From: a virus
Reading direction: 5' to 3' (one strand)
Length of the DNA stretch: 38,566 bases
Virus record (IMG/VR): IMGVR_UViG_3300034073_004665
Location: 1 to 38,566 of that record
How positions within the stretch are numbered: position 1 is the first letter of the stretch; every line of letters begins with the position of its first letter. Position numbers and translations under genes: made by a program. The notes beneath the pieces were generated by a model. It worked only from the letters and a program-made list of their open reading frames with translations. It did no database searches and had not been told where the DNA came from. Of the stretch, positions 5,054 through 34,593 are shown in pieces.

Positions 5054-8000
5054 CTAAAACGTAGATCTCTTAAAACTAGTACCTTTAGATCCTCTTTTTC
5101 TAAATGTAGCACCGGCTGTAGCTGATACCGCTGCTGCTCTTTTCCCTACTTGCTCAACTTCATCATCTGAAAGATTTGATGTAGGAATATAAAATTTATT
5201 AGAGAAAGTACTTGTCTCACTGGTGTAGTTGATCCTATTTAGATCTCCATAATTATCAGATACAGCAAGCAGTGCTAACATAAGCGCATCATGCGCATGA
5301 TCCATTGCAGAGCCGCCAGCTTCAAAGACAGGCCTTCCTGTAGCTGTTGTTCTAACAACAACATATGAAATAAGCTGCATATATAGTTCTTCATCTGAAG
5401 ACGGAAAACATATTTCCTCTCTTTCAAGATATTGTCTAAGATTGTCCACCATGTACGGCTTTATTTCTTTTTTAACCATAAGTTTTGTATATGGATCTCT
5501 AACTTCTATACTTTCCCCAAAACCTATTCCCTTAACCCTTTCTCTAAGTTTAGAATTAGGATTTTCCACTCCATACTTTCTCAAAAGCTCCACTTGGACC
5601 TCGCCAAAACCTCTATCAACATAAATATGTTTTGGTTTAAAAATATCATTTAACTCTATGATACGATCAACCCCACGAGTTAAAGTGTATTCAGACTTAC
5701 TAATCTCTTCCCTGTAGCAAAGTTTAACCTTCCCTCTAGTTGCTTCATCTTCATAGTTATCTGCACAAACTTCTAATACAACTATATTTGTCCCAGCTCC
5801 ATACTTATCCCAATCAACGCCTATTACATGAAAAGACCTAGCTGACGTTATTTGTGGAATATAATCCCATGCCGGGTCTACAAATGCTCTATCAACAAAC
5901 TTTCTAGGGTAAACACCTTCAGAATCTTCACCCCAATCAGCCTCTATTTCATGACGATATCCCGAAGAGGAATATTGCTCCCTAAACTCTTCTTCTTGTT
6001 CTTTACTGAAAAACGGATTACAATTATGAACCAAAAGTCCATTTGCTATATATGAGTTAGTATCTTCTACTTCAAAATTATACACTAACCCAGAATACTT
6101 AATTGATTCTTTGGACTTCAAAAGAAGGGCAAATTCAGAATTTGACATCTTCTTTTTGCCCAATAACTTTACGTCTTTATTTAGTGACCATTGGACTGCG
6201 TACGATTTAGATGTCGAATAATAACCATATCTTTTATTGATCCTACATGTTTTTTCTGGCGTTACAGAAATACTTGGATAGTTTCCGTTAACTCTTGTGC
6301 ACAATATCTGAATTTGCTTTGATAATTTTTTAGAAGAAGTTCTAAATACTATTTCATTATTTTTATTAAAATATCCGTCACCTTTTGCATATGATTTAAG
6401 TAGGAGATTTTGGAAATCGACAGGTGCTTGCATGATTAAATGACTTAACTCTTTTGCTGTTGATCCACGCCCAGCTAGAAAATCCATCAATAAAGATAGA
6501 GGGCCATTATGGACCCTTAGGCATACTGCGCGGCTATCTTTTCTGTACGTTAAGTTAATCTTTCCGGCAGAAAGATCATCTAAAGCGGTTTGTATTTCTT
6601 TAATGTATTCAGACTCATCACTATTCAGCGTCCAGCCCGTAATTCTATATCTAGAATAATTATCTAGAGATTCCAAATGCCCCTCTGCCAAATACCAGCC
6701 AACTAAAGTTGCAAGAGAGCTATCTAAATTTACAAACCTTGGAAAATCATTTATAAATTTTCTACCTTTAGAATTTATTTTTTTAAACTGAACCCTTCCT
6801 GAAGAAGATTCAATTAATTTACCAGGAAATAATTCCATCATATCAAGCGCTTGTTTATTCACTTCTGCATTAAAAATGGACCTAAGAAGATGACCAGAGT
6901 TTTGATTTCTAAACTTTATTGGCTCCAAATTCGTTGCTTCAATCCAGTCCCATTTGTATTCTTTTTGTCTTCTTATTTTTTTCGTAGCACTAAATGGATG
7001 CTCTCCTGTAACCAAAAGGTCAGATGAATCCCCATATGTCTTAATATTAAAAATGTCCCCATCAAATTGTCTTTCAAAAGTTCTTAAGACTTTTTTTGAC
7101 CCTTGTTCTGTCAAAACTTGATCTCCAACACTAATCTCATTAATATATTTAAAGCTTCCATCACACATAGTTATTAAGGTAGATGGATCAAAGCAATACG
7201 AAGGAAACCAAAACTCTTGAAATCTTTCCGATCTACACCATTCCCAAAACCTTTCTCTGCGACCAGTGGGGGTAGAAGCGCCCATAAGAACTTTATCTGG
7301 CTGGTCCTCTGCTGTTTTTTGTAGCATGGCATACAGAGCATCTAGGTCACCAGAATGCATGTAATCCATCTCGTCAAGAATGATTAAATGAGCTTCTTGA
7401 CCACGAGCAACATCACTATTACCAGTTACGTGAACTAGTCCATTGTGCCTTGTAACAAAATAACCAGTATTAGGTACAGTTACGCAATATACTTTTCCTT
7501 TATAATGAATCTTTTTTAAATTTTCTTTAGAAAGAATTGATTTAGTTTTCGGATATGCAGAAACTATCCAATGTCGATTTGGTTTTCCGCCCTTAACTGG
7601 AGTGTATAAAATATTTTTTTCTCTAATATTAGCCCTAAGTCCGAGTCTTACAGCGATTTCCTGCACATCAGAAGCAAGCTGATAAGAGGAACTGCTATAT
7701 TCCCATCCATCTCTTCTAATCCATCCGTCTCCACCCAAAAGACCATCAAGTAAACCCTGTAAATTTTTTTCCGTCATTAATTCCCTCGGAATACACTTGT
7801 TATAAGCATTCGTTCCAGAAAAAATTGGAGGTTTCCATTTTATTCTTATTTCTTTTTTGGGACTTGTATAATGAATGCCAAGATTTTTTGCTAATTCACA
7901 TATTCTTTCTCTTCCATAAGTTTTCGATTGAGATATTCTAGACATCTTTCCTATGTACCCAGATCCTTCTGATAGCCACCAACCCCAAATTTCTAATTCT

Positions 8001-8995
8001 TCTCTAGAAAATACATCAGTTGATGACTTAACTGGATTTACTGATCCTGTTGGAACATAATAGTCTTTTAGGTTATTTGCTTCAACATCTTTCCACTTTG
8101 AACCAGGAGCCCTTGTTTTTACTGCTAGCTTATGATTGGTTGTCACATTAAATGAAACCTGTTGACCATCATGAATAATTAATTTATCATTATGATCATA
8201 TTCCCAAAAATTATTTACAGTATCCCAAAAATATTGGTCTTCTTTCCAAGAAAGTATTTGCTCTCCCACTTTAACATCTGCAATACTTTTCCATCCATTC
8301 TCACTTAGAACTTCATGATCTGGAGTGAGACACTTTCCGCCACTGCGCATACCAGATGTGAAGAACCTGATAGTGGACCCGTTCGAAAACTGAATCATAA
8401 ACTGAGGACTAGTAACTTTTCTCGTTATAGAATTCATAACAACATCATTTTTTTGAGCTATTCTCAATATCTCCTGATAGATTAACTCAACATGAGTTTT
8501 CATAGGCGCGACAACTAAAGACCTACCATCTTTTCTTGTATAAGAATAGTGCAGCAGTTGGATAGCCATAGAGAAAGTTTTTCCGAGACGACGACCAGCC
8601 CTCAAAACCTTTCTCAGAGATGGGTCTCTAAGAATCAGTATCTGATAAACTCTAGGATTCACACCTAGGAAATTTCTAGCCCACGTTACGCTATCCTTAG
8701 CTACATGAAGCTGTCTCTGTGTCTCTGTGCTAATTCCTGCCGCCAGCAATTCTTTATCAACCTCAAAAGGTTCATCAATAAGAAGCGCTAACTCTTTATT
8801 TGTAATTTTCCTTGACTGAACTGGACTGCCATCGCTCCATGTTAAGTGAGACAGCTTATTCTCAAAAACCCACTCAATTCTATTAACTTGCTTTATAAGC
8901 TCGGGATCTTGTGCACGAATTATCTCTAAAAGGTCTTCGCGAGAAAGTCTTTCTAATGAAGATCTAAAATCTTTTGTTTTACTAAAAACACTCAT
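5054..8995 (-). CDS. terL: Large terminase subunit with two inteins
   Basis: 1313 residues before splicing. It is the DNA-packaging motor ATPase and headful/site nuclease that docks on the portal. ATPase part: Walker A GRRLGKT at residues 134-140, Walker B LIILDE at 537-542, coupling motif ASTPTG near 573-578. Nuclease part: VIGVDWD (acidic residues 1061 and 1063), IYVDRGFGE, and a late MDHAHDALM acidic motif. Two inteins interrupt it (residues 222-526 and 601-991); removing them leaves about 617 residues, normal for this family. Start ATG 8995; the neighbouring Gly-rich gene ends 6 bases upstream. Activity depends on both splicing events if both inteins are functional. Confidence 0.95.
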   Translation of the reverse strand: MSVFSKTKDFRSSLERLSREDLLEIIRAQDPELIKQVNRIEWVFENKLSHLTWSDGSPVQSRKITNKELALLIDEPFEVDKELLAAGISTETQRQLHVAKDSVTWARNFLGVNPRVYQILILRDPSLRKVLRAGRRLGKTFSMAIQLLHYSYTRKDGRSLVVAPMKTHVELIYQEILRIAQKNDVVMNSITRKVTSPQFMIQFSNGSTIRFFTSGMRSGGKCLTPDHEVLSENGWKSIADVKVGEQILSWKEDQYFWDTVNNFWEYDHNDKLIIHDGQQVSFNVTTNHKLAVKTRAPGSKWKDVEANNLKDYYVPTGSVNPVKSSTDVFSREELEIWGWWLSEGSGYIGKMSRISQSKTYGRERICELAKNLGIHYTSPKKEIRIKWKPPIFSGTNAYNKCIPRELMTEKNLQGLLDGLLGGDGWIRRDGWEYSSSSYQLASDVQEIAVRLGLRANIREKNILYTPVKGGKPNRHWIVSAYPKTKSILSKENLKKIHYKGKVYCVTVPNTGYFVTRHNGLVHVTGNSDVARGQEAHLIILDEMDYMHSGDLDALYAMLQKTAEDQPDKVLMGASTPTGRRERFWEWCRSERFQEFWFPSYCFDPSTLITMCDGSFKYINEISVGDQVLTEQGSKKVLRTFERQFDGDIFNIKTYGDSSDLLVTGEHPFSATKKIRRQKEYKWDWIEATNLEPIKFRNQNSGHLLRSIFNAEVNKQALDMMELFPGKLIESSSGRVQFKKINSKGRKFINDFPRFVNLDSSLATLVGWYLAEGHLESLDNYSRYRITGWTLNSDESEYIKEIQTALDDLSAGKINLTYRKDSRAVCLRVHNGPLSLLMDFLAGRGSTAKELSHLIMQAPVDFQNLLLKSYAKGDGYFNKNNEIVFRTSSKKLSKQIQILCTRVNGNYPSISVTPEKTCRINKRYGYYSTSKSYAVQWSLNKDVKLLGKKKMSNSEFALLLKSKESIKYSGLVYNFEVEDTNSYIANGLLVHNCNPFFSKEQEEEFREQYSSSGYRHEIEADWGEDSEGVYPRKFVDRAFVDPAWDYIPQITSARSFHVIGVDWDKYGAGTNIVVLEVCADNYEDEATRGKVKLCYREEISKSEYTLTRGVDRIIELNDIFKPKHIYVDRGFGEVQVELLRKYGVENPNSKLRERVKGIGFGESIEVRDPYTKLMVKKEIKPYMVDNLRQYLEREEICFPSSDEELYMQLISYVVVRTTATGRPVFEAGGSAMDHAHDALMLALLAVSDNYGDLNRINYTSETSTFSNKFYIPTSNLSDDEVEQVGKRAAAVSATAGATFRKRGSKGTSFKRSTF
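6023..7195 (-). other. Intein 2 in terL (LAGLIDADG homing endonuclease type)
   Basis: 391 residues. It starts at Cys601 (CFDPSTLITM) after FWFPSY and ends at Asn991 with a canonical GLLVHN before Cys992. Block B is VTGEHPFS. LAGLIDADG-type helices are LATLVGWYLAEG (761-772) and LLLKSYAKGDG (864-874). All canonical splice residues are present (Cys1, block B His, penultimate His, terminal Asn, Cys+1). It is inserted after the ATPase coupling motif. It shares little sequence with intein 1, so the two look like independent invasions. Confidence 0.92.
7418..8332 (-). other. Intein 1 in terL (LAGLIDADG homing endonuclease type)
   Basis: 305 residues. It starts at Cys222 (CLTPDHEVLS, block A) directly after SGMRSGGK and ends at Asn526 before Ser527. 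Block B is TTNHKLAV. Two LAGLIDADG-type helices are visible: LEIWGWWLSEG near 334-344 and LLDGLLGGDG near 415-424. The C-terminal end reads RHNGLVHVTGN then S. The penultimate residue is Gly, not the usual His, although HN and VH occur a few residues earlier. The insertion is about 10 residues before Walker B, a conserved position of the host enzyme. Confidence 0.9.
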
Positions 8996-11252: not shown

Positions 11253-14200
11253 TTAAAAAGCTCCATTAAAAAGATGATTATTTTTTCCATTTGACATGTT
11301 TGTGTGATTTATTTTTCTATTATTTAAATCATTAACTATAGGAGTCGTTGACATAGGGTCTAGCCTAGATGGTCCTGACAAACTATATGATTCACCTAAT
11401 GAATATTTATTCATTCTATCCTCATAAGGCTGCTCTTCTAGTGTTTCGTCATATGCAGATCTTTCTTGGCGTTTCCCATAGCTATAGTAACCGAACCCAG
11501 CTACTGCTGCAATTCCGAGTCCTATAAGTCCTTTTTTCTTATATTTTGTATAAAACTCCTCCGCTTTATACAGGTTACCGCCGCTAACAGAAGTGGAAAT
11601 TTTTTTACTTACAGCTCTTCCCAGCTCTGGTGATTCATCTATCCTCTCAGCGAGGTCGCCAACTACTCTTAGATAATTTGAATCAGTATCTTTAACCAGT
11701 TGTTTTGCTTCATCGCCCATTCTTTCTAAAACTTCTGCGTCTCTAACAGGGGCTAAAACGCCTACAGACCCCTGATCTGTGTCTATATCAGAAGTTAATA
11801 TTCTACTAGTTCTTGATCCAGAAATTACATCAGAAGATGTATCTATACCGATTCTCTTAAAATCTTGTTCCAGCTCCAAGGTCTGGGGTTCATCAATATC
11901 AAGATTACCTATTACTATTCCATCATTCATTTTTTCTGTTACAGAATTTATAGCTTCTTGCATTGCGTCTTGTGCCGCTTGTGCAGTCTGGCCTGGTCCA
12001 ATTTTTGCTTCTACAGCTGCTATAGTCCCCTTTAAAGCTGGGCCTAATTCTTCGTCTACAGAAAGATTTAACAAACTCCTAACTTCGTCTACGTCGTTAA
12101 AAATATTTAAAAGATGTTCTGCTACAGCTCTTGATTCATCATGGTTTAGATTTCTAGCTGTATTCCAAACTACGTTAACACCTCTTCCAATATCATCAGG
12201 TTCTGCTGATCTCCTAATATCACCAAAAGAAAAACCTACATCATTTAGAGAAACTCTTCCATCCAACATAACCTTTTCTAGTGCCACATCACCTGCATCC
12301 ACAGCTTTTCTTACAGCTTCTTCTACGATTTGAAGAGGTATAATCAATTTATTGGACAATCCAGAAGATTCCTCTAACATGTTTCTAACATTATATTTCG
12401 TCCCAGATTTAAAATATGTCAAACCCATTTCAATCAAATCCTCAGCTCTAGATGCAAATCTCAAGTCACGAGGTGCTACCTGTGATGAGGGAGGATTAAT
12501 AGCTGCTCTTTCAACAGCTTTACCTAATCCAGATGTATGCTTAGCTAAAATTGTTGAAACAACTCTCTCTTCTGGATCACTGACATATCCATACCCTATA
12601 TTCGCAAAATTATTTGCAACCTGCTCTACCGCTTCATCTCTATACCTTCCAAGACCTGATTTAAAAAATCTAGGCCTAACGATGTGACCAAAACCGGGAG
12701 GACTTGCTTTAGATGTTCCAAATGTTTCATACACTCCGCCTAAAGCAGAGAGAATGTCGTCATCATTTAGGGCATCCTTGCTAACCGTAGCGGCCCTCCT
12801 ACCAATATTGATTAAATCAAGATTTTGTATTCTATCCATTTTTGAAGCAGTTCCGTAATTTATGCCAGTTCTTACCACCGACTCTACAGCAGATTGGTCG
12901 CCTGCCCTAGCATCTGCTAAATTCTGCCTAATGAGATCTTTGATATTATCCTGTGTCAAACCATATCTATATTCGAGCTCATCTGAATCAATAACCCTTG
13001 GAGCCACCGTTGTGGAAAATCTTTCTACATCTTTTGCTTCATACAGTTGAAATTTTCCTGTTTCTTTATCGAAAGCAAAAACTCCTGTTACAGATTGCCT
13101 TTGACGAGTAAACACACGTGTTCTTTGATTACGATATAAACTTCTACCTCTACTGTCCGTTATATACTCAATTGGCTCTTCTATCGTTGATTCTATTGCG
13201 ACTCTCTGAAGCATTGTGTCTTTTTCGTAAATACTCCTAAACACAAGATCGCTCATCTGCTGGACATTTGCTATATCTGTTGTCGCATTGATTGCACTAG
13301 ATCTGCGAATTACATTTCTTGCCCTATTTATTTCAGCGTTATTTAAGTAGCTGTGTTGAACTTGTACTGCTGAACTTAAAATATTCCTACGCTCAATCTC
13401 ATCAAGACTAAGCTCCCCACTATCCATATACCTTCTTATATAATCTTCTATTATTACGTCCATAGATGCAATATGGGAGCCACTATGTATTTCATTAAAA
13501 ACTTCTGGAGCGTCACGCCTAATAAGGTCGAGTAGATTAGTGTTGTCAGCGACTTGTGTAACACCAGCATATTTTAATCCTTGACCTGTCTCAGCTGGCA
13601 TTCCCGCAGACCTGCCATATAGAATTCTTTGAAATCTTCTAGAAGCTTCAAAAGAATCATCAAATATTTCAGGATTTTCATTTCTCATAATTTCAATAGC
13701 CTGCTGCTGGAGGTAATTACTAACACTTAGAAGCTGATCACTTATAAATCCCTCTTGATTGAGCTTGCCCCTAAATATTTCCAACTGGCTCATTAATCCT
13801 TGATGTTGTTTAGACCCATCAATACTATCTATAGTTTCCAGAAGCTTAGATATGTCAAATCTAGCATTGTATGTAACAACCGTATCAGCGGTATTCAATT
13901 CTGTCAGGAGACCCTCTAAGGCGTCTAACATCTCAGGATTAGACCTAGCTATAACACTTCCGGGTCCTTGACCTATTTCTCTTTGAATTAAGAAATCTGA
14001 AACTTTTTGTGTAGCACCGCTTTGCGTAGTTACGGTTTGACCGTGCAAAGCGTCTACGTCTAGAAATACGTTAGATACAACATTGGGCCTAACCGGAGTC
14101 CCGTCTGGATTGATTGACTGCCCAGCTGCATTAACCATTTCTCCAGCGCTATTCATGTAGCTCTCTGAAACTGCCAGTGTTCTAGCGACAGACCTCGCAT

Positions 14201-14858
14201 CTACACCAGTGGTCTCAATATCAAGTGTTAAAACTTTTTTTATCGCCCCTGATGCTGGACGTATAACACCGCCACTACCAGCAAGCGCAGATTCAATTTG
14301 AGCAGAACTCATTACTTTTCCGCCAAAACCTATAAATTCAAAATTTTCTGGTCTGCTATTTGGGTTTATAGTAAGATTTAACCTGCTTAATAAAACTTGA
14401 ACCGGATGTACAAATTCTCCTCCTTGATTTGTCGCATCGACTAAATAACGCATAGATCCAGTATACGGATTAGAGGATGGAACCGAAACGGTTGGAGGGC
14501 CATTATTAATTAGCGCAGGAAGATTAATTATTTTTCTTTTAAATTTTTCTTGAAGTTTTCTTCTAGTTTTACTATCCGTTATTAAAGAAAAATCTAATCC
14601 TTTTGATAGAATATCTTGATTAATTTCCTCAATAGTCGAATACGCAATATTTCTTCCCATGTTACTCTGCATGACTGCTTCTGTAAATTCTTGCTCAAAA
14701 TTTCTATACATTCTTAAAAAGTAGTCTGAGCTTGACATTGCTGGATCAGGACTTGCATATATAGATTCTATATTAGGCAAAGTTAACGGAGTACTCACTG
14801 ACCCTACACGGCCTCCGAGTTTAGAAATTAAAGTTCCATAAACTTCATCAATTCTCAT
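11253..14858 (-). CDS. Large virion-operon protein with embedded DEDDh 3'-5' exonuclease domain
   Basis: 1201 residues. The exonuclease core spans roughly 208-475: Exo I LTLDIETTG (Asp213, Glu215), Exo II TYNARFD (Asp335), Exo III HIASMD (His462, Asp467). This is the complete DEDDh set used by the proofreading/RNase T class. Residues 1-200 and 480-1100 are unrecognised, mostly helical, with a poly-acidic tract. Near 1107-1130 is KKGLIGLGIAAVAGFGYYSY, a probable membrane helix followed by a basic residue cluster, like the other Gly-rich proteins in this operon. Linkage to terL and tail genes points to a virion-associated or packaging nuclease rather than a replication factor. The domain call is strong; the role is inference. 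Confidence 0.85.
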   Translation of the reverse strand: MRIDEVYGTLISKLGGRVGSVSTPLTLPNIESIYASPDPAMSSSDYFLRMYRNFEQEFTEAVMQSNMGRNIAYSTIEEINQDILSKGLDFSLITDSKTRRKLQEKFKRKIINLPALINNGPPTVSVPSSNPYTGSMRYLVDATNQGGEFVHPVQVLLSRLNLTINPNSRPENFEFIGFGGKVMSSAQIESALAGSGGVIRPASGAIKKVLTLDIETTGVDARSVARTLAVSESYMNSAGEMVNAAGQSINPDGTPVRPNVVSNVFLDVDALHGQTVTTQSGATQKVSDFLIQREIGQGPGSVIARSNPEMLDALEGLLTELNTADTVVTYNARFDISKLLETIDSIDGSKQHQGLMSQLEIFRGKLNQEGFISDQLLSVSNYLQQQAIEIMRNENPEIFDDSFEASRRFQRILYGRSAGMPAETGQGLKYAGVTQVADNTNLLDLIRRDAPEVFNEIHSGSHIASMDVIIEDYIRRYMDSGELSLDEIERRNILSSAVQVQHSYLNNAEINRARNVIRRSSAINATTDIANVQQMSDLVFRSIYEKDTMLQRVAIESTIEEPIEYITDSRGRSLYRNQRTRVFTRQRQSVTGVFAFDKETGKFQLYEAKDVERFSTTVAPRVIDSDELEYRYGLTQDNIKDLIRQNLADARAGDQSAVESVVRTGINYGTASKMDRIQNLDLINIGRRAATVSKDALNDDDILSALGGVYETFGTSKASPPGFGHIVRPRFFKSGLGRYRDEAVEQVANNFANIGYGYVSDPEERVVSTILAKHTSGLGKAVERAAINPPSSQVAPRDLRFASRAEDLIEMGLTYFKSGTKYNVRNMLEESSGLSNKLIIPLQIVEEAVRKAVDAGDVALEKVMLDGRVSLNDVGFSFGDIRRSAEPDDIGRGVNVVWNTARNLNHDESRAVAEHLLNIFNDVDEVRSLLNLSVDEELGPALKGTIAAVEAKIGPGQTAQAAQDAMQEAINSVTEKMNDGIVIGNLDIDEPQTLELEQDFKRIGIDTSSDVISGSRTSRILTSDIDTDQGSVGVLAPVRDAEVLERMGDEAKQLVKDTDSNYLRVVGDLAERIDESPELGRAVSKKISTSVSGGNLYKAEEFYTKYKKKGLIGLGIAAVAGFGYYSYGKRQERSAYDETLEEQPYEDRMNKYSLGESYSLSGPSRLDPMSTTPIVNDLNNRKINHTNMSNGKNNHLFNGAF

Positions 14859-17657: not shown

Positions 17658-17873
17658 TCAGAACCTGTACATTCCTGTCGGGCGAGATGGGCCAGCCTTA
17701 TCTATACCCCTACCTCTACGTCCGTTAGCAACGTATCCTGCCGTACCCATTCCGCCAACGACCATAGCACCAGTTTTCATTGGCTTATTGCGTCCATACC
17801 TAACTACGCTTGCAGCGGCGTTTTTGCCCTGGCTAGCCAGTCCAGCCATTCGTGGAATTCCTCTCATGATCAT
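17658..17873 (-). CDS. Small basic Gly-rich protein (71 aa)
   Basis: Starts at 17873 (MIMRGIPRMAGLASQGKNAA), overlapping the end of the AAA+ gene by four bases (ATGA-type), so it is translationally coupled. It contains KTGAMVVGGMGTAGYVANG, a Gly-rich hydrophobic segment, followed by the basic run GRRGRG. It shares the pattern basic / GxxxG-helix / basic with the 131- and 356-residue neighbours, suggesting a common ancestry or role. Confidence 0.6.
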   Translation of the reverse strand: MIMRGIPRMAGLASQGKNAAASVVRYGRNKPMKTGAMVVGGMGTAGYVANGRRGRGIDKAGPSRPTGMYRF

Positions 17874-19318
17874 TCACCATCCTCTGTACTGTTTTTAGTG
17901 TTTTGATTAGATTTTTTTATAGGTTTTTTAATATCAAATAAAAATTCACTATTTTTATAATCCACATAAAAAATAGTACCTTTTGGAATAGGGTTTGCAA
18001 CTATAGATTGCGCTAATTTAGATTCTATTGACTCTCTTCTAATTTGTGAAATGCCTCTAGCACCTTTGATACTGTCAATTCCAAGCTCTATAAGACCATC
18101 TATTACATTATCGGTATATTCAAGACCGAGTCCCTTTTTTGTTAACTTTTTAGCTATAACAGACATTTCTAATTCAGCTATTTTTATGCAGTCATCTTTT
18201 GACAAATGATTAAATACAACAATTTTATCTATTCTATTAATAAATTCTGGTTTAAAATACTTTTCTATAGCTTCATGCGTCCTTTTTTCGACTATCGATC
18301 TGCTCGGCATGTGTGTTGTTCTTCTGGAGAAGTCTATTTTTGCGTTAAAACCTACTCCTATAGACGTCGCATCTTTAACAACTTTATCATTCCCCAAGTT
18401 TGTTGTCATAACTATTATTGATTTCGTGAAATCAACCTCATCACCTTTATTATCGGTTACGATTCCTTCATCAAATATTCTTAAGAACGTATTCCACATA
18501 TCCTCATGGGCTTTTTCTACTTCGTCTAACAGAAGTACTGTGTAGGGGTTCTTTTTTATCTGATTAGTTAGCTGCCCACCTTCATCATGTCCAACATATC
18601 CTGGTGGGGATCCAAGAAGTTTTTGATTTTCATGTTTATGCTGAAATTCTCCGCAGTCAATGCGGACCATTCTACTTGATGCTCCATATAGATACGTGTG
18701 TAATGTTTGAGCAAGGTGTGTCTTCCCCACCCCAGATGAACCCGCAAACAAAAAAACCCCAAGAGGACTATTCTCGTCATGTAGGTCAGCTTGCGATCTG
18801 CATAAAGTGGATACAATTGTTTCTATTGCGTGATCCTGTCCTATAACATTGTTTTTTAAATAGTTTTCTAATCCAAGAAATTTTTGTTTTGTTATTTTCT
18901 TATTATCTTTTAATGGCTTTAGCTGTTTACGGACAGTTGAATTAGATCTTTCTATAAATTCTCTAACTTGATCTATATCGCCATGATTATGGTGGTCATC
19001 TATAATGTCTAATATTTCTGGAGCCCCTGAGTAAGCCCTGTCTATCCAGTACTCGATATCTAAACTGGGGTTCAGCATTACACATCCAGAATATATTGCT
19101 TCTATAGCTTTTTCTGCGGATGTCCTAGACATTAGAGATAAGGACTGAGCGACATCTGTATTTAAATTGAAAACATAATTTTGTAGTATTTTCTTTTTAA
19201 GATTATCTTTCTTCAATCTTTTATTTTTATCCATAAATTCTTCAACGTCACTCGGTAATAGAACTTTAAATTTCACATTAGTGCCGAGTTCTGGAATAAA
19301 TATAGAATATATTTGCAT
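17870..19318 (-). CDS. Clp/Hsp100-type AAA+ ATPase (single AAA module)
   Basis: 482 residues. Residues 1-150 are unrecognised. The AAA+ module resembles the second ATPase domain of ClpA/ClpB/ClpC: NVIGQDHAIE (157-166), Walker A GSSGVGKT (193-200), pore loop GSPPGYVG (236-243), Walker B VLLLDE (261-266), sensor 1 TTNLG, arginine finger FINRID, sensor 2 GARGI. A ClpB-type C-terminal small domain follows. The first AAA module of true ClpA/B is absent. I see no clear ClpP-docking tripeptide in the usual position. Expected role: ATP-driven unfolding or remodelling, perhaps of virion parts or host proteins. First gene of the leftward operon; start ATG 19318 with a GAGAGG ribosome site. Confidence 0.9.
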   Translation of the reverse strand: MQIYSIFIPELGTNVKFKVLLPSDVEEFMDKNKRLKKDNLKKKILQNYVFNLNTDVAQSLSLMSRTSAEKAIEAIYSGCVMLNPSLDIEYWIDRAYSGAPEILDIIDDHHNHGDIDQVREFIERSNSTVRKQLKPLKDNKKITKQKFLGLENYLKNNVIGQDHAIETIVSTLCRSQADLHDENSPLGVFLFAGSSGVGKTHLAQTLHTYLYGASSRMVRIDCGEFQHKHENQKLLGSPPGYVGHDEGGQLTNQIKKNPYTVLLLDEVEKAHEDMWNTFLRIFDEGIVTDNKGDEVDFTKSIIVMTTNLGNDKVVKDATSIGVGFNAKIDFSRRTTHMPSRSIVEKRTHEAIEKYFKPEFINRIDKIVVFNHLSKDDCIKIAELEMSVIAKKLTKKGLGLEYTDNVIDGLIELGIDSIKGARGISQIRRESIESKLAQSIVANPIPKGTIFYVDYKNSEFLFDIKKPIKKSNQNTKNSTEDGE

Positions 19319-19573: not shown

Positions 19574-19918
19574 ATGCTAGCTGGAGATATTCTCGATCTT
19601 GTTCACACTTGCTCATGGGTAGCTCCTTGGTATATAATGCATTTCGTTAATTATAACACAGAAAACATAGTGGAGAAAATGGACAACGAACTTCAATCAA
19701 TAGCAGAAACGATTCATGAAAATTTTATGGATATGTATCATTCTTGTATAATCGCTTCTGAGGAATCATTTCCTGATAGCGAACAGGCAACGCTAAAATT
19801 AATGAGATCTCTAGCGTTAGAAACTTCTAACATGCAAGAAGTCTTTAATGATATTCTTCATGAATACATATCCGAGATAAGGGCAGAAACTAATCAGGGT
19901 GAATTATTTGATGTCTGA
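19574..19918 (+). CDS. Orphan helical protein upstream of recA (114 aa)
   Basis: Starts MLAGDILDLVHTCSWVAPWY with a strong AGGAGGTATA ribosome site just before it. Acidic, mostly helical, no motif recognised. Its last codons overlap the recA start by 8 bases, so the two are probably co-translated and co-regulated. A role linked to recombination is only a guess from context. Confidence 0.7.
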   Translation: MLAGDILDLVHTCSWVAPWYIMHFVNYNTENIVEKMDNELQSIAETIHENFMDMYHSCIIASEESFPDSEQATLKLMRSLALETSNMQEVFNDILHEYISEIRAETNQGELFDV

Positions 19919-26216: not shown

Positions 26217-26351
26217 ATGATTAGTGCTCGTGTTCTTACCATTTTCGATGACTTGCCAGTCGTCGGAAATGATTTGAACAGGGGTCCTAGTCCCTGGATC
26301 CCGAGGGCGGCGCCGTATGCCCAAAAAGCGGCAGAAAGGAGGCTTTTCTGA
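26217..26351 (+). CDS. Small ORF, copy 2 of a duplicated coupled peptide (44 aa)
   Basis: ATG 26217 (MISARVLTIFDDLPVVGNDL), then the same NRGPSPWIPRAAPYA core as copy 1. The last codons (GAAAGGAGG) are the ribosome site of the giant gene, and TGA 26349-26351 overlaps its ATG by one base. Position and structure match copy 1 exactly: a peptide ORF whose 3' end is the ribosome site of the gene that follows. Confidence 0.65.
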   Translation: MISARVLTIFDDLPVVGNDLNRGPSPWIPRAAPYAQKAAERRLF

Positions 26352-29300
26352 TGGAGAAGCTTCTCGTCCAGCTCACTCCGGAGCAGATTGCTCCCATTAT
26401 CAAGCACCTGGAGGAGCAGGTGCAGCCCCACCTGGTCAATGATGTCAGCAGATACGCTGTCGGTCGCCGGCGGGTCTGGCTGCCGTACGAGGCCCCGTTG
26501 TCCAACAGCCGCCCCTGGCAGCTGGGGATTGACGACCAGAAGTTGTGGCAGTGGATCTGCTACATCTGCGAGACCCACGCCGGGTTCACGCCCGATGTGG
26601 CCCTGGTGGCTAAGGGGGGGCAGATCAAGCCTCACCGTGACACCAGCTATGCCGACTACCGGGCCATTGGTATCAACCTCGGTCCCGTGGTCTGGGGGTA
26701 TCAGAGGCAGAGGACGGCGTATGCCAACATGCCTCAGGATGACTCCGCCGAGAAGGTGGAGATCGAACTCCAAGGAGGTGAGGTGTTCGAGTTCAACTCG
26801 AAGAACATCCACTGGACGCGTGATGCAGACCCCAACAGGTGGTCCATTAACGTATGGCAGGTCAAGGGTGGCGAACAGAAGTCGAAGTTCGTCGCCTTCA
26901 AGAAGTCCCTCGCTGAGGGGCCTACCGTGTCGGAGGTGCCGACACCCAAGTCTTCAGACAAGGAGGAGAACATGAAGGCTTACAACATCCACTGGACCAC
27001 TGGCCCGAAGGCCGGTACGACCGAGTCGGTATCCGTGACCGACTTCATGGAGGTGATCAACATGGTCAAGGATTCTGGCCACGCAGGTCAGATCAAGAAG
27101 GCTGAGATGGACACATCAAAGCCAACGACACCTGAGGTTAAGCCCTCAGAGAAGGGTAAGGAGGAGGAGAAGGTGGGTAGCAAGACCCCGTTCTACGTCA
27201 TGGGCACGGGCTCCAGGAGCCTTGTCCTCGAACCGAAGGAGGTCAGAGAGCAGGTGAAGGCTAAGTTGATCGAGGAGATCGAGAAGCTCAAGGCCAAGCA
27301 CCCGAATTTGGTCCTGATTTCTGGCATGGCCGAAGGGTGGGACGAGCTCATCGCCCGTGTGGCCGTTGAGCTGGGGTTGCCGTTCATCGCCATGGTTCCG
27401 AACAAGGGCTACGGTGCCTACTACTGGGGTAAGAACAGCCTCATGAAGAAGGATCGCATGGCCTCGTTCGATGACCTGCTGGCGAAGGCTCAGCGGGTGA
27501 TCTATACCTGTGATTCCATCTACGTCTACGACGTGGACGGGAAGAAGACGCACAGCAACTTTGTGCGCAATCAGGCCATGGTCAACATGTGCCATGGTGC
27601 CTTGGTATATAAGTCCGAGTCGCCTGGCACCAGGGACGCCGTGAAGCGTCTTCAAGCGGCGAAGAAGCCGTATAAAATCTATCCCTTCACCAATCCAGGT
27701 GGAGGGGACGACGGGAACAAGCCCGTCATCGAACCGTCAGGAGGCGGTATGTTCCAGCTCACCTACAAGATCGGTGGCAAAGAGAGGGTTGAGAGTTTCA
27801 GCAGCCTTCGTCAGGCCAAGGACCGAAAGAAGGAGGTGGGGAACGGCGTGATCAAAGTCGACAAACTCCAGGTGGTCACCCAACGCGGTGAGTACGTGGA
27901 GCAGGCCGCTCAGAATCTGTTTGAGCCCGCTCCCAATAAGGAGAACAAGGAGCAGGTGAAGACCTGTCGAGCACTGACAAAGAACGGCGATCTTTGCCGT
28001 CGTAAGGTGACGGAAAGCGACTACTGCTGGCAGCACCTCGACGGCGGAGAAATGGAGGTGACGCTCGATATCGATGAGATCATGGCGCGTCTCCTTGCGG
28101 GTCAGCCCATCACCTGGATGATGGAGCCGGAGTACCCGCATCTCACCAGAGAGGAGATGCCGGAGCTCTGGATCACCAATGACCCAACTCCGGAGGAGAT
28201 CCTGAATTACCGCGTCTCCTTCACGGAGAACATGGGAGTCAAGACCGCATCCGGAAGATGGACGTTTGCCGTGAATACGGGCGCTCAGCGGTATCCGTTT
28301 TTGGAGCGTCTGTCACGACATGGTGTGAAGTTCCATATCCGGAAGTTGGACACCAAAGCACTCGCGTGTCATGATCCCGAGAAGGTGAAGGAGATGACCA
28401 GGAAGCATAATCTGTCCTGGTCGGATTCCACCAGCACTTACCTCATGGACATCCATGGGGTGCAGCCCAGTGACCACCTGGACTGGTCGCTGATCGGCAT
28501 CTTCGCCAAAGATGTCAAGAAGTTGACCAAGCGACTCGCGGAGATCACGCGACTCGTCTTTACGTGGTCCTACGACGTGAAGAACAGCGAGATCGTCCGG
28601 GCCGCTCCTGACGACCAGAAGATGGCGAAATTGGTTGCCCAGATGAAGGGCATGGGCTACAGCACCGAGCGGATCAAGGAGGGCAAGGTTCAGCTCATTG
28701 ACGGCATGAACTTCATCCGCCGTTCTGCCGTTCACAAGCGGTACCGTCATGAGCACCGGTTCATGACTCGGGTGATGACCGATGAATATCTCGTCAAAGG
28801 TGACATGATCGTAATAGATGACGACATCTTCGATCAGGTCTACGGGCCTGATAAGAAGATGGTCGTCCACCCCGACAACGTGAAGTACGAGGTCGGTTTC
28901 ATCACGACAGGTAAGTGGGCCATGTTCAAGGACCCGAGCCTGATGACCTACTGGGTCCATCACCCAATCCACGATTTGCGGTACGATGCTCAGCTGAGCA
29001 TCAACCAGCCCCACATCATGGGTGTTGAGTTCCTGTCGAGGGATCTCGGGCTGATGATGGCCAAGCTGGCCGAAGACGCAGACAAGGGCATTTTGCCCAA
29101 CCAACAATATGCCTTGGAACCGTCTGACCTGCACGAGGTTTGGGACAACGGTGGCATGGACCTGGCTGGTGAAGCCGAGGTCGCGAGGTCGGCTGTCGAC
29201 TACTGGGCTGGGAACGGCCTTGACCCACGGGCGCTCCAGTCAATGGTGTACTTCGCCATGAATGGCGTCGTCATGCAGCTGGACAAGAGCCTGGTCCAGA

Positions 29301-30769
29301 CCCACCGCGAAGATCCGAAGGACAAGCTCCACGAGAAGTTCAACATTCGGGTCTCGAACGGCTTTCGGGCTGCCTGCTCGACGCGTGAGATGTTCGAGAT
29401 GTACTTCAACATCCAGTTCGACACGCCTGCCACGAAGGGCTTCTATGATCCTCGATACGGCATGGTGTGGCCTGGCATCCGGTTCATCCAGACGTTCCGT
29501 CTCCATGGCACGCATGACCACGACGACTTCCACGTGTTTGTGCCGATCAAGATCTACGGAGAGGACACGCTCCGGGTCAAGAACCTCAAGAAGGAGGGTG
29601 TCTTGCCCAGGCACATCAACGTCCCCAAGAAGAAGGAAGAGGCCATCATGGTGTTGTTCACCATGCGCTCGCCCAACGGCGCTGGCGAGTACAGTGTGAT
29701 GGACTTTGACTTCAGCACCTGGCCTGAAGAGATCCCCTTCAACGAGGAGATGGTTCCGGTGGTGAGCACCGATGACTTCCTTCCTTCTTTAGAGGAAATG
29801 ATCCCGAACCCGGGGAATCTGCCCGGTCTCAAGGACAGTCGGAAGTACAACAAGGATCAGAGCTACACCCGGGACTTGTTTGAGACCGACTTGGATGCGC
29901 AGTTCATCAACCCTGGCTTTGGCAAGATCTGCAACATGCTGCTGTTCTACAGCCATGTGACCGGTGGGCAAATCCCATCGTTCATGCCCGATGAGCTCGG
30001 CAACATTGTCGATGCCACCCAGCAGGGTGCTGACATCGAGACGTTCAAGCAGATTGCTGATTTGAGCCAGCAGTTTGTGGCCGATTTCGCCAAGATGAAG
30101 AGTCCGCCGGTTGCCGACACCTATGTCTGGGCTATGCGTGGTCAGACCATCAATAAGAAGTTCATCACCGCCAGTACGTCCATCGACAAGATGGGCTTCA
30201 AGGTTAACGACAGCCCCTTCTTGATGTTCAACAATAAGGTCTATAAGCCGGCAATCAGCCAGCTTCGCCAGGACATCTCGGAGAAGTACTCGTTCAACAT
30301 GAGGAACCGCAACCACACGGTCAAGTGGGTGAGGGAGAATGTCGCTCCGAAGTTCACGAACGATCAGATCAAGAAGATGGCCAAAGATCTTCGGACCCTT
30401 GAGGATGAGATCAGCTACGCTCTCAAGGCCGACTATTACGGCGATCTGCCGAAGACGAAGTACACGCATGCCATTGCCTCCCGCAGCAAGCGTCTTGCAC
30501 TCCGTGCTGTTATGGACAAGTTCATGGAGTACATGCTGAGTGTCAAGGTGGATGGCGAGACTGTTCCCGCCACGGAGGAGACCATTGCGCTCCGTGTGAT
30601 GCTTGTTTGGGTCACCTTGTTGACACCCCGTGCTATGGGGCCGAAGTCTGTCCATGGCCACTCTGATCGCATCATGACGACTGCCAACAGTGACGGACTC
30701 TGCTTGTTGCACTATGTGCCTGCAGCTTTGCGTCACTACGGCTACAGCCCTGACGCTGAGGTGGAGTGA
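26351..30769 (+). CDS. Giant multidomain protein: 2OG-Fe(II) oxygenase-like + SLOG + Cys/His knuckle + large unknown domain
   Basis: 1472 residues. Residues 1-172: oxygenase-like double-stranded beta-helix with iron ligands His95-x-Asp97 (KPHRDT), His154 (NIHW) and 2-oxoglutarate Arg163 (PNRWSINVW), like AlkB-type enzymes. Residues 279-446: SLOG/YpsA-like Rossmann domain (MGTGSRSL, LISGMAEGWDELIARVAVEL, PFIAMVPNKGY). Residues 539-562: C-x9-C-x9-C-x2-H knuckle (CRALTKNGDLC..YCWQH). Residues 568-1472: one or more unrecognised domains, with GTHDHDDFHVFVP and MRSPNGAGEYSVMDFD motifs. In-frame ATGs at 26972, 27749 and 28052 each follow a purine-rich ribosome site at a domain border. So this may be a fusion of formerly separate genes, or give several products. 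GC-rich codon use. Confidence 0.75.
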   Translation: MEKLLVQLTPEQIAPIIKHLEEQVQPHLVNDVSRYAVGRRRVWLPYEAPLSNSRPWQLGIDDQKLWQWICYICETHAGFTPDVALVAKGGQIKPHRDTSYADYRAIGINLGPVVWGYQRQRTAYANMPQDDSAEKVEIELQGGEVFEFNSKNIHWTRDADPNRWSINVWQVKGGEQKSKFVAFKKSLAEGPTVSEVPTPKSSDKEENMKAYNIHWTTGPKAGTTESVSVTDFMEVINMVKDSGHAGQIKKAEMDTSKPTTPEVKPSEKGKEEEKVGSKTPFYVMGTGSRSLVLEPKEVREQVKAKLIEEIEKLKAKHPNLVLISGMAEGWDELIARVAVELGLPFIAMVPNKGYGAYYWGKNSLMKKDRMASFDDLLAKAQRVIYTCDSIYVYDVDGKKTHSNFVRNQAMVNMCHGALVYKSESPGTRDAVKRLQAAKKPYKIYPFTNPGGGDDGNKPVIEPSGGGMFQLTYKIGGKERVESFSSLRQAKDRKKEVGNGVIKVDKLQVVTQRGEYVEQAAQNLFEPAPNKENKEQVKTCRALTKNGDLCRRKVTESDYCWQHLDGGEMEVTLDIDEIMARLLAGQPITWMMEPEYPHLTREEMPELWITNDPTPEEILNYRVSFTENMGVKTASGRWTFAVNTGAQRYPFLERLSRHGVKFHIRKLDTKALACHDPEKVKEMTRKHNLSWSDSTSTYLMDIHGVQPSDHLDWSLIGIFAKDVKKLTKRLAEITRLVFTWSYDVKNSEIVRAAPDDQKMAKLVAQMKGMGYSTERIKEGKVQLIDGMNFIRRSAVHKRYRHEHRFMTRVMTDEYLVKGDMIVIDDDIFDQVYGPDKKMVVHPDNVKYEVGFITTGKWAMFKDPSLMTYWVHHPIHDLRYDAQLSINQPHIMGVEFLSRDLGLMMAKLAEDADKGILPNQQYALEPSDLHEVWDNGGMDLAGEAEVARSAVDYWAGNGLDPRALQSMVYFAMNGVVMQLDKSLVQTHREDPKDKLHEKFNIRVSNGFRAACSTREMFEMYFNIQFDTPATKGFYDPRYGMVWPGIRFIQTFRLHGTHDHDDFHVFVPIKIYGEDTLRVKNLKKEGVLPRHINVPKKKEEAIMVLFTMRSPNGAGEYSVMDFDFSTWPEEIPFNEEMVPVVSTDDFLPSLEEMIPNPGNLPGLKDSRKYNKDQSYTRDLFETDLDAQFINPGFGKICNMLLFYSHVTGGQIPSFMPDELGNIVDATQQGADIETFKQIADLSQQFVADFAKMKSPPVADTYVWAMRGQTINKKFITASTSIDKMGFKVNDSPFLMFNNKVYKPAISQLRQDISEKYSFNMRNRNHTVKWVRENVAPKFTNDQIKKMAKDLRTLEDEISYALKADYYGDLPKTKYTHAIASRSKRLALRAVMDKFMEYMLSVKVDGETVPATEETIALRVMLVWVTLLTPRAMGPKSVHGHSDRIMTTANSDGLCLLHYVPAALRHYGYSPDAEVE
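26960..26974 (+). promoter_or_regulatory. Internal ribosome site and ATG in the giant gene
   Basis: AAGGAGGAGAAC followed by ATG 26972 (Met208), exactly after the oxygenase-like domain. It is as strong as real starts in this block, so an internal in-frame product is plausible. Confidence 0.5.
27739..27751 (+). promoter_or_regulatory. Internal ribosome-like site and ATG in the giant gene
   Basis: AGGAGGCGG then ATG 27749 (Met467), right after the SLOG domain and a Gly-rich linker. Spacing to the ATG is short, so it is weaker than the first internal site. Confidence 0.35.
28043..28054 (+). promoter_or_regulatory. Internal ribosome-like site and ATG in the giant gene
   Basis: GGCGGAGAA then ATG 28052 (Met568), just after the Cys/His knuckle and before the 900-residue C-terminal part. 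Confidence 0.35.
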
Positions 30770-34517: not shown

Positions 34518-34593
34518 GCCTCCGTAGCTCAATTGGTAGAGCAGCGGGCTTTTAACCCGTTGGTTGCAGGTTCGAATCCTGCTGGAGGCACCA
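34518..34593 (+). tRNA. tRNA-Lys (anticodon TTT)
   Basis: Acceptor GCCTCCG/TGGAGGC (one G-T), D-arm GCTC-AATTGGTA-GAGC, anticodon stem GCGGG/CCCGT with loop CTTTTAA and anticodon TTT at 34551-34553, T-arm GCAGG-TTCGAAT-CCTGC, discriminator A and encoded CCA (34591-34593). All elements are canonical. It would read AAA/AAG lysine codons, which the AT-rich genes use heavily. Confidence 0.97.

Follow-up and report, generated by a model that had tools for sequence, protein, structure and literature searches.

The window analysed here, a 38.6-kb viral record from IMG/VR taken at its full length, carries an ORF at 26351-30769 that is open without interruption for 1472 codons and that lies on the plus strand, as do all features described below unless stated otherwise. 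The ORF is real. Its third-position GC content stays at coding-like values of 0.74-0.81 over its whole length, the linkers included, and its own start codon, ATG 26351, is preceded by the strong Shine-Dalgarno (SD) site AAGGAGGC (26336-26343, -10.6 kcal/mol). From the N-terminus, the 1472-residue product consists of an AlkB-fold oxygenase, a mini-module, a SLOG domain, a second possible mini-module, a Cys/His knuckle and what is, judging by its fold, very probably a two-barrel RNA polymerase (RNAP). A sequence-only reading of the same DNA had described a single unbroken frame joining an oxygenase-like part, a SLOG part, a knuckle and some 900 further residues at the C-terminus; the frame is borne out, and all four parts were found.

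The first domain (residues 1-189, 26351-26917) was modelled, with a pLDDT of 93.6, as a 2-oxoglutarate (2OG)/Fe(II) oxygenase with the double-stranded beta-helix of the AlkB type. It was folded alone and alignment A4 was discarded, because the permuted order of the modules had placed SLOG rows on the oxygenase. Over residues 1-183 the model matches AlkB, ALKBH2, ALKBH3 and ALKBH5 at Z of about 15, and every one of the best 50 VIA rows is an AlkB/ALKBH/FTO-type protein. The HxD...H signature and the C-terminal arginine are present as H95xD97, H154 and R163; these four residues are invariant across 17 relatives and by position correspond to the iron triad and the 2OG arginine. In fold and signature the domain resembles the AlkB/ALKBH nucleic-acid demethylases, but it shares only 12-18% identity with them, and its family, unlike theirs, is tied to RNAP through fusion or gene neighbourhood.

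The SLOG domain (residues 276-449, 27176-27697) is of the YAcAr/YpsA type, matching phrog_289 at E 5e-14 and PF10686 at 24 bits, the latter under the cut-off of 28.2; standalone SLOG genes at two other loci of the set (L122 and L138) score above the PF06908 cut-off. SLOG, NADAR and DUF4326 modules in large phages have been proposed to degrade ADP-ribose (ADPr)-type immune signals, although the activity of viral SLOG proteins on NAD/ADPr derivatives is uncharacterised (PMC9503650); by analogy, the SLOG domain of the window is predicted to act on such derivatives. The suggestion of a combined base-modifying and signalling enzyme in the sequence-only reading fits both the AlkB fold and the SLOG domain, and the anti-defence role that it added is one that domain precedent would suggest. 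The Cys/His knuckle CRALTKNGDLCRRKVTESDYCWQH (residues 537-564, 27959-28042) is DUF5763-like, with a score of 21.8 bits that lies below the curated cut-off of 26.3. Between these domains, a mini-module of about 45 residues (208-253, 26972-27109) begins at an internal start and resembles modules of the homologous loci L117, L177, L173 and L174, and a second possible copy (residues 467-510, 27749-27880), weakly similar, follows another internal start; the two copies in the window align only loosely. The same kind of module recurs in those loci, opening either at an internal SD-ATG or with the gene itself (L117 654-695, L177 245-287, L173 1-44, L174 1-42).

What is the large C-terminal part? The sequence-only reading had left its 900 residues as unknown and missed an RNA polymerase. 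An AlphaFold2 model of residues 568-1472, built with 28 homologues (mean pLDDT 80, pTM 0.80), has as its best Foldseek match Arabidopsis RDR2 (probability 1.00, E = 3e-3). In VIA-align, rows 1-19 are solely RDR2, QDE-1, P32 gp64, P74 gp62, P23-45 gp96 and phi14:2 gp66, at Z 11.1-5.4 over 300-630 aligned residues, and row 20 is unrelated, at Z 3.7. These rows, together with the pLDDT, place the crab-claw fold with two double-psi beta-barrels (DPBBs) that characterizes two-barrel RNAPs in residues 597-1464 (28139-30742), and the assignment to this class by fold is one in which we have high confidence. In alignment A2, whose numbering is offset by 567 from the ORF residue numbers used here, the invariant positions are the three aspartates of a D-x-D-D loop, K816-G, K845-x-E, R1106-x-P-N-x-x-G, D1221...Q1225 and R1263. 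The invariant pair K816-G817 (28796-28801) supplies a candidate active-site lysine of the first barrel, along with K845 (28883); R807 is nearly invariant, and these residues precede the aspartate loop in the expected order. The loop itself, D1056-H-D1058-D1059 (29516-29527), is the putative metal-binding motif in a contracted DxDD form of DxDGD, and it is followed by the conserved RxPNxxG as R1106-S-P-N-G-A-G (29666-29686).

The enzymes P23-45 gp64 (nvRNAP) and gp96 (vRNAP), phi14:2 gp66 and SPbeta YonO are single-chain two-barrel RNAPs (PMC10770324, PMC7824862), with catalytic loops that read TGADYDGDIGYVFP in gp64 and STGVDFDGDTLVVLP in gp96. A profile of the new family shows no significant similarity to the single sequences of gp64, gp96, YonO and gp66, a result that agrees with the published observation that two-barrel RNAP families have little sequence in common outside the DxDxD region (PMC10770324). 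The polymerase is a new, divergent family within the single-chain two-barrel class. It is like the known phage enzymes in having two barrels per chain, an aspartate-rich catalytic loop and paralogue pairs in many genomes, and its fold matches gp64 (P32), gp62 (P74), gp96 and gp66; it is unlike them in its lack of detectable sequence similarity, in the DxDD form found in many of its members and in its fusion to oxygenase, SLOG, NADAR, DUF4326 or PIF1 modules. The closest solved folds are the eukaryotic RNAi polymerases RDR2 and QDE-1 (Z 11.1 and 9.1), from which the new family differs in its bacteriophage origin, its 7-11% identity and its accessory modules. Explanation of the chain by one known large family was considered and rejected.

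Searches of Pfam, PHROGs and PDB sequences with the C-terminal part gave zero matches, and direct scans of IMG/VR contigs with it, or with a DNA pattern of its motif, returned nothing. Relatives were instead reached through the large terminase gene of the window (5054-8995, minus strand), by way of its 375 IMG/VR relatives and then of whole related contigs. Homologues of the C-terminal part were present in 14 of the 45 terminase-linked records searched, and a profile made from them led to 43 loci, some of which lie on contigs 200-268 kb long. The family resides in large uncultured phages of about 200-270 kb, and most of the largest contigs hold two RNAP paralogues, spaced mostly 11-16 kb apart. 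A second paralogous clade (B) occurs in the same phages (L122 19788-21893, L160-L166, G046-G060), often with an oxygenase gene adjoining. Family-wide searches of Pfam, PHROGs and PDB sequences gave no consistent match, no gene for a multisubunit RNAP (PF00562) was matched in the 25 records in which one was sought, and, at the sensitivity used, no relative was found in 50,697 isolated phage records, 72,556 plasmids and a bacterial genome collection. This is a polymerase family that is widespread yet unannotated in large uncultured phages.

If the fused protein descends from neighbouring genes, are its parts found as neighbours in relatives? They are, as the sequence-only reading had suggested checking. 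In L172 the RNAP, SLOG and oxygenase genes are consecutive, with 1 nt between the SLOG stop codon and the oxygenase ATG; at this pre-fusion junction, AAGAAGGAGTCGTAACATG, the SD sits within the last codons of SLOG. In L122 a SLOG gene ends 1 nt upstream of a NADAR-RNAP gene, and in L160-L166 an oxygenase gene lies 0.5-1.7 kb upstream of an RNAP gene. Fused forms vary widely in composition: SLOG-oxygenase-RNAP in L177, PIF1-SLOG-oxygenase-RNAP in L117, SLOG-oxygenase-NADAR-PIF1-RNAP in L173 (NADAR and the PIF1 helicase at residues 492-1190), DUF4326-SLOG-oxygenase-RNAP in L174-L176 (DUF4326 at residues 72-145 of L174), oxygenase-RNAP in L119 and NADAR-RNAP in L122. The oxygenase-SLOG-RNAP arrangement of the window is unlike that of every other SLOG-oxygenase fusion, giving two orders in all. 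In an IQ-TREE tree, the SLOG-oxygenase fusions require two label changes that good branch support makes unavoidable, and both L119 and L122 fall among unfused rows; going by this tree, fusions arose in at least two independent lineages. The alternative that homologues would always be full length and free of internal starts does not describe this family, and there is good support, in the separate, adjacent and fused forms and in the start signals at the seams, for the earlier idea that coupled genes of an operon lost their stops.

Those start signals are in frame with the fused protein. At the oxygenase border, ATG 26972 (M208) follows the internal SD AAGGAGGA (26960-26967, -10.6 kcal/mol), and at the SLOG border, ATG 27749 (M467) follows CAGGAGGC (27738-27745, -10.3 kcal/mol); an extra strong SD-like site, GGAGGTGA (27049-27056, -10.6 kcal/mol), precedes ATG 27062 (M238) within the first mini-module. 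Of the three border starts first proposed, those at 26972 and 27749 are strong like the ORF's own, whereas the SD of the third, the in-frame ATG after the knuckle (M568, 28052-28054), is weak at -5.0 kcal/mol. Across the in-frame ATGs of seven fused genes, namely that of the window and six homologues, a strong SD precedes 21 of 48 linker ATGs and 0 of 359 in-domain ATGs (Fisher p = 3e-22); the baseline rate of strong SD-ATGs is 28/2635 over 367 distinct ORFs. Codon-shuffled linkers yield a mean of 1.5 strong sites, and randomization of synonymous codons with the protein kept yields a mean of 9.7; in neither control did any of 3000 randomizations reach 21. The K/E/G-rich composition of the linkers thus explains part of the signal, and a clear excess lies at the RNA level. 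Additionally, glutamate upstream of linker ATGs is encoded by GAG in 34 of 39 cases, as compared to 57% elsewhere (p 7e-5). The seam start signals are a family-wide, RNA-level feature, and their excess over both controls supports a fused operon with its start signals kept, except at 28052.

We propose, with a probability of roughly 0.75, that the ORF encodes an RNAP with N-terminal host-takeover and counter-defence modules, derived from a fused operon of coupled genes whose RBS-starts were kept as linkers. The point of origin would have been an operon whose genes lay side by side and were translationally coupled; stop codons would have dropped out and the reading frames been brought into line. 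At each junction the RBS and start codon of the downstream gene, reaching even then into the 3' end of the gene before it, would have been retained as the linker. Ribosomes would load at 26351 and at internal sites, chiefly 26972 and 27749, giving the full-length protein along with shorter polymerase-containing forms whose lengths would be near 1265 and 1006 residues, and the internal starts would tune the amount of free polymerase forms relative to the fused protein. The polymerase would transcribe phage genes. SLOG, or NADAR or DUF4326 in relatives, would destroy or sense ADP-ribose-type immune signals, and the AlkB-fold oxygenase would act on nucleic-acid bases, perhaps those of template or transcript; such modules would serve early host takeover and counter-defence, the latter a role that we infer from domain precedent. 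We lean towards the view that nested products are made from the internal starts.

The strongest competing explanation accepts the domains and the fusion as proposed but treats the SD-ATGs as mere relics of a recent fusion that give no nested products. The weak third start speaks for it, as does the pattern at the starts nearest the RNAP in the window's clade, which are weak throughout (M568 at -5.0, L117 M966 at -5.9 and L177 M552 at -8.0 kcal/mol), the last linkers of L117 and L177 being without strong sites; moreover, no reduction of mRNA structure was detected at the strong internal sites (p = 0.30). Against it, in the pairs L117/L177 and L173/L174 equivalent seams keep an intact SD even though synonymous positions have diverged almost to saturation (identical residues share their codon at a rate of 0.44-0.55, with 0.40-0.42 expected by chance). 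Together with the excess over synonymous randomization and the preference for GAG, this retention makes the relic explanation the less probable one, at something under one-third by our judgement.

A different doubt concerns the polymerase domain, which might be dead or might have another activity, such as primase-like, RNA-templated or signalling-nucleotide synthesis. The contracted DxDD loop, one residue shorter than DxDGD, is found in the window and in the remaining rows of the tree set, about three quarters, and the nearest folds, those of RDR2 and QDE-1, belong to enzymes that are RNA-templated or dual. Against this, alignment A2 shows no variation in the three aspartates or in the basic residues, the canonical DxDGD occurs in eight sampled relatives whose rows group inside the window's own clade, and two copies are kept in many of these phages. 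We consider loss or change of activity unlikely and regard the polymerase as a predicted catalyst, its DxDD form being a predicted enzyme only.

Similarly doubtful is the notion that the fused chain is packaged in the virion and co-injected with the DNA, following the logic of polyvalent proteins or of the N4 virion RNAP. There are precedents: the N4 enzyme is fused to enzymatic modules (PMC5512222), and the P23-45 vRNAP is fused to the tape measure (PMC10770324). The two RNAP paralogues carried by large phages of this set also recall vRNAP/nvRNAP pairs, and the clade B paralogue and the main RNAP are possibly such a virion/non-virion pair. The ORF of the window, however, lies on the plus strand amid non-structural genes (RecA at 19899), whereas the structural genes are on the minus strand, and internal starts would be pointless in a chain that is purely co-injected. 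The N4 and polyvalent proteins (PMC5512222) resemble the new family in joining a polymerase and host-conflict enzymes on one chain; they differ in that the N4 virion RNAP is a T7-type palm polymerase, and internal SD-ATGs at seams are not described in the passages of that paper drawn on here.

Less probable still is a protein-level origin of the linker motif (for example NPEEGPxM or PKEDxM), as a flexible charged linker or a protease site of which the likeness to an SD is a by-product. K/E/G-rich linkers do give SD-like DNA by themselves, as the synonymous mean of 9.7 attests, but the sites exceed that null, the SD is encoded through varied peptides and reading frames (KEE, KED, EEG, GG, GEV), and a protease site needs neither ATG nor GAG. 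Finally, an artefact of assembly or frame is a negligible prospect, for although the window's ORF is seen in one contig alone, its coding GC3 is continuous and like fusions occur in independent contigs, that of L174 in three identical copies from three samples.

The new results are the identity of the large domain as an RNAP and the family-wide, RNA-level conservation of the seam start sites. With its DxDGD and DxDD loops, the set of sampled relatives amounts to a natural test of the motif that is most conserved in cellular transcription. The architecture also physically couples transcription to NAD/ADP-ribose immune-signal chemistry and base oxidation; a survey of the same SLOG, NADAR and DUF4326 set describes its members in DNA viruses as occurring for the most part alone or joined to each other (PMC9503650), and here these modules are fused to the RNAP of a DNA phage. 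We are intrigued by an extension of our proposal, for which we see even odds, in which each such locus of these large phages is an operon for transcription and counter-defence inside one ORF, its modules (SLOG, NADAR, DUF4326, AlkB-fold oxygenase, PIF1 helicase and two-barrel RNAP) joined in frame and in shuffled order by RBS-linkers that act as in-frame recombination points and its output a giant protein with a ladder of shorter forms. If true, one message would yield a giant polymerase-effector protein and shorter forms, and the similarity of the RBS-linkers would permit module swapping. The family offers a clear case of RBSs kept as linkers after gene fusion, and it makes the production of separate products from fused genes testable.

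Several other genes of the window deserve mention. The terminase gene contains two intein-like insertions, at about residues 221-527 and 601-992, where relatives have one or none. At 11253-14858 (minus strand), amid structural genes, lies a gene for a 1201-residue protein with an exonuclease-like stretch (LTLDIETTGVD...) and no PHROG match. An ATP-dependent Clp-type protease ATPase (17870-19318, minus strand; phrog_4871, E 3e-101) adjoins a tail tape-measure-like gene, and one tRNA-Lys (ttt) gene is located at 34518-34593 on the plus strand.
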